Below, one piece after another: positions 18,290-18,811 of a DNA stretch of 64,000 nucleotides. The first letter of the stretch is position 1; each line of letters starts with the position of its first letter. The translations under genes were made by a program, and so were the position numbers. The notes below the pieces were generated by a model. It was given only the letters and a program-made list of their open reading frames with translations, ran no database searches and was not told where the DNA came from. This DNA is from Anaerolineaceae bacterium (GTDB taxonomy: Bacteria; Chloroflexota; Anaerolineae; Aggregatilineales; Phototrophicaceae): NCBI GenBank assembly GCA_002699585.1, contig PABP01000038.1, positions 372,001-436,000 on the forward strand. Direction: 5' to 3'.

Positions 18290-18811
18290 TTACCTATTAT
18301 CAGCCAGATACCCAAACAATGCATCCAGCAGTTCGGCTTCCTGTAGCGGCCCAAACCAACGCCTGATTTCAGTACCATCCGGTGCCAGGAACAAATATTG
18401 TGACCGCTGCACAAGATTGTACTGCTCACGCAGGGCCAGCGTATCGTCATCGTCGACATCCAGCCGTATGAAGGTGATTTCTTCACCGAAGTCAGATTCT
18501 AACCCATTCACGATGGGTTCATTGTGCCGTCAGGTTGATCACCAGCTTGCATAAGAGTATAGGAATTGAGGACGCACATCCACCACATCAGCGGTGGCCG
18601 ATGGGGCAACCGTTGGCGAAGCGACTGTTAAGGTGGCCGCCGTCGTCAATGACGACTCGGTGGGTTGTTCAGTCGGCAAAGCGGTTGTGGGCGAAAGCGG
18701 AATAGGAGATGCAGTCATCGTGGCAGATACCGTCATGTTGGCGGGGCCACAAGCGCTCAAACCCAACAGGCCTATACAAACCATCCCCACTATTTTTAGT
18801 AGCCTAACCAT
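18290..18811 (-). CDS. Putative selenoprotein: lipoprotein-anchored thioredoxin-like protein with a UxxU active site
   Basis: One frame runs from ATG 18811 (TTG 18817 is the alternative) to the stop at 18290, 173 residues, if two in-frame UGA codons at 18539-18541 and 18530-18532 are decoded. The order is a signal peptide with lipobox (LLGLSAC), a Thr/Pro/Ser linker, then a thioredoxin-like domain: PQFLYSYASW-UGA-S-T-UGA-R, followed by NGLESDFGEEITFIRLDVD, a second strand-helix pair (SQYLFLAPDGTEI) and a C-terminal helix. In thioredoxins the residues after SW are CxxC, so both UGAs sit on the redox cysteines (positions 91 and 94). A SECIS-like hairpin follows. Other genes here use UGA as stop, so codon reassignment is unlikely. 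Conventional annotation would give two broken fragments. SelA/B/C/D are not in the window; decoding is inferred. The usual cis-proline position reads Ser/Gln, unusual for the fold. Confidence 0.75.
18501..18519 (-). promoter_or_regulatory. Candidate bacterial SECIS hairpin
   Basis: On the minus-strand mRNA, AACCCAT and AUGGGUU form a perfect 7-bp stem with loop CGUGA. The loop starts 17 nt after the second UGA and 26 nt after the first, both within the 16-37 nt window of the published bacterial SECIS model. The loop has a G among its first two bases, as that model requires. One element could therefore serve both codons. Confidence 0.65.

Follow-up and report, generated by a model that had tools for sequence, protein, structure and literature searches.

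Eukaryotic SelL carries a UxxU motif, in which selenocysteine (Sec, U) occupies both redox positions, and relies on a different SECIS system. Prokaryotic UxxU selenoproteins are found among the Prx-like (PF00578) and GOS Prx-like 2 proteins according to the available portions of two sources (PMC13188914, PMC2398784). The first of these, a 2026 review, also tabulates thioredoxin selenoproteins (PF00085, UxxC) before its heading 'Predicted with high confidence' and lists the NF041057 family as DsbG-like, UxxC. Open-licence PMC main texts, without supplements and represented by passages only (including PMC13188914, PMC9312934, PMC2398784, PMC12013277 and PMC1794560), yielded no UxxU thioredoxin lipoprotein. 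The gene described here is best read as encoding a new variant, a lipid-anchored, thioredoxin-fold UxxU selenoprotein, with selenoprotein thioredoxins, the (seleno)lipoprotein NF041057 and Prx-like UxxU proteins already known.

The gene lies in the window, which is the whole stretch of 64,000 nucleotides of DNA that was analysed, and its features are collected in Table 1. When TGA is translated as U, positions 18290-18811 of the minus strand give 173 residues followed by a TAA stop, with U91 and U94 in the context ...PQFLYSYASW-U-ST-U-RHNEPIVNGLESDF... and with the two UGAs 9 bases apart. Under translation table 11 the frame is broken, and its first piece is a 92-residue ORF with a TTG start that ends at UGA 1. 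The first-pass annotation had proposed this 173-residue frame, UGAs at both CxxC positions of a thioredoxin, their 9-base spacing, several flanking peptides and a lipobox, and all of them are present in the translation, the lipobox as LGLSAC with Cys21. The N terminus meets the criteria for a bacterial lipoprotein, with LSAC at Cys21 and an N-terminal helix at residues 2-16; the lipobox pattern is [LVI][ASTVI][GAS]C, and the call uses this pattern and the model helix only, without a signal-peptide program. The Cys21 column is at least 90% conserved in alignment A2, which holds 24 loci of the window gene's own family (family 1, below) and excludes L027, L030, L031, L033, L035, L036, L053, L054 and L057. 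The thioredoxin-like domain claimed earlier is recognized by PF00085 (Pfam Thioredoxin), which scores 31.8 bits over residues 83-163 (cut-off 23.5). In an AlphaFold2 model built on 24 family sequences, pLDDT by block is about 89-98 over residues 81-173; the model places position 91 directly before a helix at 92-108 and finds its best PDB matches (Foldseek) in solved thioredoxins. The column that holds Ser137, which we take from the alignment and from general thioredoxin anatomy to be the cis-proline site, has no Pro in the window's subclade (all 22 members carry Ser, Ala or Thr), whereas Pro is found there in all 18 members of the other family-1 subclade and in 83 of the 85 remaining rows.

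Table 1. Features of the predicted UxxU lipoprotein gene (window coordinates)
Feature	Position	Strand	Details and basis
UxxU thioredoxin-like lipoprotein gene	18290..18811	(-)	173 aa; ATG at 18811, TAA 18290-18292; translation and homologues
Lipoprotein signal peptide, lipobox LSAC, lipid-anchor Cys21	18749..18811	(-)	sequence and model helix 2-16
Low-complexity Pro/Thr/Ser/Ala linker, residues 22-78	18578..18748	(-)	low model confidence (block means 53-66); no secondary structure
Thioredoxin-fold domain, residues 79-173	18293..18577	(-)	PF00085, pLDDT, Foldseek
UGA 1, predicted Sec91, first redox residue	18539..18541	(-)	translation, homologues, alignment
UGA 2, predicted Sec94, second redox residue	18530..18532	(-)	translation, homologues, alignment
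SECIS-like hairpin AACCCAT-CGTGA-ATGGGTT	18501..18519	(-)	covariation, folding, SECIS constraints of PMC13188914
Ser137 codon, thioredoxin cis-proline place	18401..18403	(-)	sequence alignment and general thioredoxin anatomy

Thioredoxin selenoproteins share with the window protein the thioredoxin fold and a Sec as first redox residue; unlike these UxxC proteins, the window protein is predicted to be lipid-anchored and extracytoplasmic, with Sec at both positions and Ser in place of the cis-proline. It is not a canonical thioredoxin, as the TIGR01068 equivalog scores 36.6 bits against a cut-off of 96.8 and Ser137 replaces the cis-Pro. NF041057 ('Rcas_1661 family thioredoxin-like (seleno)lipoprotein', a name that points to a Chloroflexota locus tag) is likewise a Sec-containing thioredoxin-like lipoprotein. 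It is not among the listed NCBIfam matches of the window protein at E up to 0.1, so that the membership test fails, and at the same threshold it matches only three of 24 family-1 members (best E 0.015). The first-pass annotation knew of no bacterial lipoprotein of this layout; thioredoxin-like (seleno)lipoproteins are in fact known from NF041057, but this family is listed as UxxC and does not match the window protein. Prx-like UxxU proteins have two Sec residues as the window protein does, but in peroxiredoxin-like domains, and PF00578 (AhpC-TSA) is rejected for the window protein as it is not among its Pfam matches at E up to 1. SelL shares the UxxU motif and is eukaryotic, and no sequence comparison with it was made. 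By the tests made, the window protein would thus fall outside the canonical thioredoxin equivalog, NF041057 and the Prx-like UxxU proteins.

Homologues were sought in 61 genomes, namely the source genome and 60 relatives, and a match at E up to 0.001 occurs in 55 of them. Fifty loci (L008-L057) were read, with many weaker matches and further U-carrying matches outside this sample, and all except L054-L056 split into two groups. L055 and L056, among the weaker matches, are ordinary CGPC thioredoxins; L054 (G041, contig C276) is a distant thioredoxin-like frame with a UGA at its motif (HAYWUSACRRC) and stands outside both family alignments. Family 1, to which the window gene belongs, has U-x-x-C at 19 of the loci read, C-x-x-C at 11, and U-x-x-U in the window gene and in G023 (L020), where no lipobox was recognized. 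One genome, G060, carries both CxxC and UxxC family-1 paralogues (L029, L051), and the same-genus genome G001 has no family-1 match in the 61-genome search. Family 2 is a shorter lipoprotein of the form PTFLFFYTDG-U-PP-U-AQMxPIVNGLE...GLPGHP, with UxxU at 13 of the 15 loci read and UxxC at two, and the source genome itself holds two UxxU paralogues of it (L038 on contig C4 and L039 on contig C19), which the first-pass annotation had not noted. No codon other than Sec or Cys was found at the two sites among the homologues read, and the window gene fulfils the criterion of an in-frame UGA where homologues have Cys. A chance origin of the frame is excluded because the homologues read stay open through the site and have UGA or Cys codons at exactly these two positions. 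It had been anticipated from the sequence that homologues would have C or U at residues 91 and 94, and that decayed frames or other sense codons would refute the selenoprotein reading; the family-1 homologues read have open frames and carry only Sec or Cys codons there.

In a tree of 125 sequences, family 1 is a single group (support 100/99). Its 40 rows comprise 19 UxxC, 11 CxxC and 10 UxxU forms, eight of the last from a scan for the UxxU pattern, and the other 85 rows are all UxxU except two. UxxU rows are over-sampled, since many were taken from that pattern. The tree omits L054-L056, L206-L209, L244, the chance matches L263, L307 and L310, and 24 pattern loci judged by eye to be duplicates.

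The source genome (G000; 6.7 Mb, 96% complete) fulfils the criterion that SelA, SelB, SelC and SelD occur together in one genome. Profile searches gave 565.5 bits for SelA, 344 bits (over the cut-off) for SelB and 380.3 bits for SelD, which has one in-frame TGA; tRNA-Sec scores 72.8 bits and is called by ARAGORN as tRNA-SeC(tca), anticodon UCA. The search for selA, selB, selC and selD that the first-pass annotation recommended has thus found all four, and the absence of selB and selC, which it had named as grounds for refutation, is not seen. The SelD gene (L067/L103, contig C35) has its TGA at a CAG-U-ASK site, with a hairpin of its own downstream, so G000 holds at least one further selenoprotein-type gene.

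A hairpin that the earlier description did not include was found downstream of UGA 2, starting 10 nt past it. The distance to its loop, CGUGA, is 26 nt from UGA 1 and 17 nt from UGA 2. The bacterial SECIS model, as given in the available part of the review, asks for a loop of 3-9 nt with G in the first two loop positions, a distance of 16-37 nt from the UGA and a minimum free energy of at most -7.5 kcal/mol (PMC13188914). Position and loop of the window hairpin fit this model for both UGAs. The folding energy is -8.0 kcal/mol on a 22-nt window and -6.9 for the bare 19-nt hairpin, so that the SECIS criterion is fulfilled with the energy limit passed only on the 22-nt window. The window contains a single instance of the UGA-UGA-hairpin pattern, and 100 shuffles produced none; an Rfam scan of the window at gathering scores gave no match. 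Covariation was assessed in alignment A3, which contains 62 U-form genes (61 distinct) from protein searches only and omits the pattern-found loci (which were selected for the hairpin), the duplicates L206-L209 and the distant L054. Standard pairs fill 94.8% of its 366 pair cells, as against only 9-48% pairing in slid structures, and 36 cells are changed on both sides compared with 6.7 in shuffles, none of 500 reaching as high. RNAalifold recovers five of the six pairs, each with a compensatory change, although the energy is weak (-1.56 kcal/mol). U forms retain the five core pairs in 296 of 305 cells and CxxC homologues in 27 of 55, which indicates that the hairpin has decayed in the latter. 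Codon choice at the hairpin is also constrained in 39 family-2 UxxU genes, where Val is GTG in 39/39, Gly is GGG in 34/35, Pro is CCC in 36/38 and Ile is ATC in 37/37; elsewhere in the same genes these codons account for 42, 23, 39 and 60% of use. The 39 genes were picked by protein similarity, and binomial odds would be overstated as the sequences are related. The plain reading is selection on the RNA at the hairpin codons.

Exchange between Sec and Cys tracks the machinery. Family-1 U forms lie in genomes with a SelA match at 21 of 21 loci, 20 of them over the cut-off (the match in G034 is partial, at 254.8 bits, just under it), versus three of 11 loci for CxxC forms (p = 1.6e-5, with G060 counted in both groups). 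Among the 61 genomes, SelA occurs in 25 of 29 that have a TGA-carrying homologue and in 14 of the 32 others (p = 0.001), G015 being placed in the first group on the basis of a family-2 search of 396 genomes. The TGA-homologue genomes without SelA are G001, G009, G024 and G025 (68% complete); their best tRNA-Sec matches reach about 44-47.5 bits, compared with at least 63 in the others (cut-off 47), and SelB is present in G025. G028 (75% complete) has SelA and tRNA-Sec and no SelB over the cut-off. At class level, SelA is over the cut-off in 315 of 396 genomes and in 46 of the 51 that have a listed two-TGA row; it is partial in G161, weak only in G106, and absent from the matches listed in this search for G001, G353 and G356. 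The figure of 51 was counted by eye, with rows without a locus outside the reading, and the 46 of 51 adds little as SelA is common across the class.

Frame, family, fold, machinery, a hairpin with covariation and synonymous constraint, and Sec/Cys exchange that follows the machinery are established by computation. They support the selenoprotein reading of the first-pass annotation, with selenium content and redox function inferred. We consider it highly probable that the window gene encodes a lipid-anchored, extracytoplasmic selenoprotein with a thioredoxin fold and a Sec-x-x-Sec redox motif, although there are no protein or 75Se data. The ribosome would read both UGAs as Sec by means of SelB and tRNA-Sec, insertion at both sites being inferred. 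The single hairpin, 10 nt past UGA 2, would probably serve both codons, and its sufficiency for two insertions is likewise an inference. Outside the membrane, the protein is then presumed to act as a fast electron carrier or reductase that alternates between its diselenol and diselenide states.

UxxU-type genes appear to be widespread in Chloroflexota. When named genomes were scanned for exact matches to UGA-6-UGA-12-hairpin, 100 stretches were returned, 80 of them as loci, among which eight are family-1 UxxU genes (L237, L239, L248, L252, L261, L267, L305, L311), 68 belong to family 2 or are close to it, and three are chance matches (L263, L307, L310). L275, from a Planctomycetaceae MAG (JAHEJI010000102.1), is a distant thioredoxin-like U-x-x-U frame outside Chloroflexota, with the same hairpin and a long tree branch. 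Of the 76 family loci, all but L289 (bacterium CPR1) and L301 (Granulosicoccaceae MAG) bear Chloroflexota labels, counting some record names that we take to belong to that phylum. A search of named genomes with the window protein alone gave no match, probably because the patterns were too specific and the motif pattern required Cys codons. The first-pass annotation regarded UxxU proteins as rare; the motif is not confined to the window gene and recurs in two related, mainly Chloroflexota families.

Across the 396 genomes of the class, family 2 has two TGAs in 46 of the 47 best rows, which cover 12 families by label, and its motif was read directly in 11 of these 12. The 47-row cut was set by the author just before the first one-TGA row, and the rows listed below it mix one, two and no TGA. 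This persistence of UxxU bears on the reading in which efficient Sec insertion takes place at one UGA alone, inherited from a UxxC-like ancestor, while the second mostly terminates or takes a near-cognate tRNA, leaving the UxxU form in the minority. On general grounds a second UGA close behind the first should compound termination losses, and the many UxxC relatives in family 1 (19 of 40 tree rows) are as this reading would have it. Nevertheless, family 2 keeps both TGAs, a poorly decoded second UGA should revert to Cys by one base change, and UGA 2 lies 17 nt from the loop, inside the range of the SECIS model. We regard decoding of one UGA only as unlikely, and insertion of Sec at both as the preferred reading.

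Some UxxU genes lie in genomes without recognizable sel genes. G001, grouped in the same genus as the window, consists of one contig of 5,631,885 bp and matches in size the cultured Phototrophicus methaneseepsis ZRK33 (PMC8941918). It (L040/L106), G009 (NAT290; L041) and G024 (MAG_05; L042-L044) carry family-2 UxxU genes with the hairpin. Profile searches gave no SelB, SelA or SelD over the cut-off in any of the three, SelA reaching only 49 bits in G009 and 44 bits in G024. No tRNA-Sec was found at the level of the other genomes, the best matches being 43.8 (G001), 47.1 (G009) and 47.5 bits (G024) for a cut-off of 47, and the weak places in G001 and G009 are also matched by the general tRNA model. 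Three genomes in which no sel gene was convincingly found thus carry both UGA and hairpin, which are not always alongside the machinery. Such genomes, with no sel gene over the cut-off save tRNA-Sec matches of about 44-47.5 bits, are what might be expected if a suppressor tRNA read UGA as Cys or another residue and not as Sec. Against this, the source genome encodes a complete Sec apparatus, including a SelD gene that itself contains an in-frame UGA, the hairpin agrees with the bacterial SECIS model, and no UCA-anticodon tRNA occurs among the 45 distinct tRNAs retrieved from each of G001 and G009 (Rfam matches and ARAGORN, whose 49 calls for each genome represent these 45; G024 was outside the sample). 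A T-loop pattern search for suppressor tRNAs in sel-negative genomes gave too many chance matches among those listed. A very divergent tRNA could be missed, since only part of the first-look candidates were scored (150/166 and 150/159 by RF00005, 57/423 and 57/971 by RF01852, for G001 and G009). We give suppression very little credence and retain Sec insertion for the window gene.

The likeliest explanation of UxxU genes without sel genes seems to be recent loss of the machinery or horizontal gain of a gene cluster; a missing replicon and an unknown decoding route are also possible. Between L041 and L043 there are 24 synonymous and 12 non-synonymous differences (dN 0.041, dS 0.30, dN/dS about 0.14), a pattern as would be expected under constraint. 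L044, one of the three G024 copies, has an unrelated end, with the expected C-terminal helix continuing in a different frame; this may be a frameshift or an assembly error and, as far as the sequence can tell, points to decay. A wider proposal would hold that Chloroflexota use membrane-tethered diselenide thioredoxins, in which one SECIS directs two Sec residues 3 codons apart, for extracytoplasmic copper or cytochrome chemistry, and that some lineages, including ZRK33, keep a functional UxxU gene without selA, selB, selC or selD through unknown decoding. We hold this to be a long shot, and slightly more of one than before because L044 points to decay. That the window gene is a pseudogene, in which two nonsense changes have disabled a thioredoxin, or an artefact of sequencing error is a reading to which we leave next to no room and which is already contradicted: it has the two in-frame stops under table 11 in its favour, but the identical two positions are UGA in independent genomes, the frame, lipobox and domain of the window gene are intact, the hairpin covaries, and two family-2 genes diverge at dN/dS of about 0.14 with both UGAs kept.

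The window gene is flanked by a response regulator, an M24 peptidase, a class-V aminotransferase and a protein with a below-cut-off DUF4380 match. No conserved informative neighbour emerged for its family, a response-regulator cluster grouping the window, L104, L113 and L114. Around family 2, a copper-type P-ATPase lies near 23 of 68 loci (up to 8 kb) versus one of 79 controls (p = 3e-8). The controls comprise eight family-1 UxxU loci (none with the ATPase), 27 family-1 relatives (one), 30 T-loop pattern matches (none) and 14 selB-type, selB or tRNA loci (none). Control loci are shorter, about 275 kb in total against 475 kb for the 68 family-2 loci, and the excess per kilobase over all 68 is about 13-fold. 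Without seven that are among the records in which the link was first noticed (four with the ATPase, one a query source), the counts are 19 of 61 versus one of 79 (p = 3e-7). Cytochrome c occurs near 22 of the 68 loci, TlpA near six, CcdA near three and CsoR near one. In ZRK33 the UxxU gene sits between TlpA/Redoxin-type and DsbA/Thioredoxin_4-type proteins, with CcdA/DsbD-type, Rieske, cytochrome c and multicopper oxidase genes close by. Nothing of this kind surrounds the window gene. These neighbouring P-ATPases, c-type cytochromes, TlpA and CcdA suggest a role for family 2 in copper or cytochrome-oxidase thiol chemistry. Scs proteins such as ScsC are thioredoxin-like redox proteins tied to copper tolerance, according to the available part of one paper (PMC5524982); the analogy concerns family 2 only, as ScsC is Cys-based and no sequence comparison was made. 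For the window protein itself, an extracytoplasmic diselenide/diselenol electron carrier is the most likely function, by inference, and metal or Fe-S binding, which the absence of the cis-proline may permit, is no more than a guess.

Two inferred points will be of interest to specialists, namely the use of a single hairpin to decode two Sec residues and the association of family 2 with copper. With one hairpin and two UGAs 9 nt apart, the spacing rule and the processivity of bacterial Sec insertion become directly testable. The findings suggest that routine gene callers fragment the members of a selenoprotein family that is common in an abundant environmental phylum. ZRK33, which is cultured and has a single-contig genome, offers a setting in which to ask whether Sec genes can persist after their decoding machinery has been lost. 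Natural UxxU thioredoxin folds, with UxxC and CxxC relatives as controls, would provide a system to ask what a diselenide does beyond a selenenylsulfide or a disulfide.
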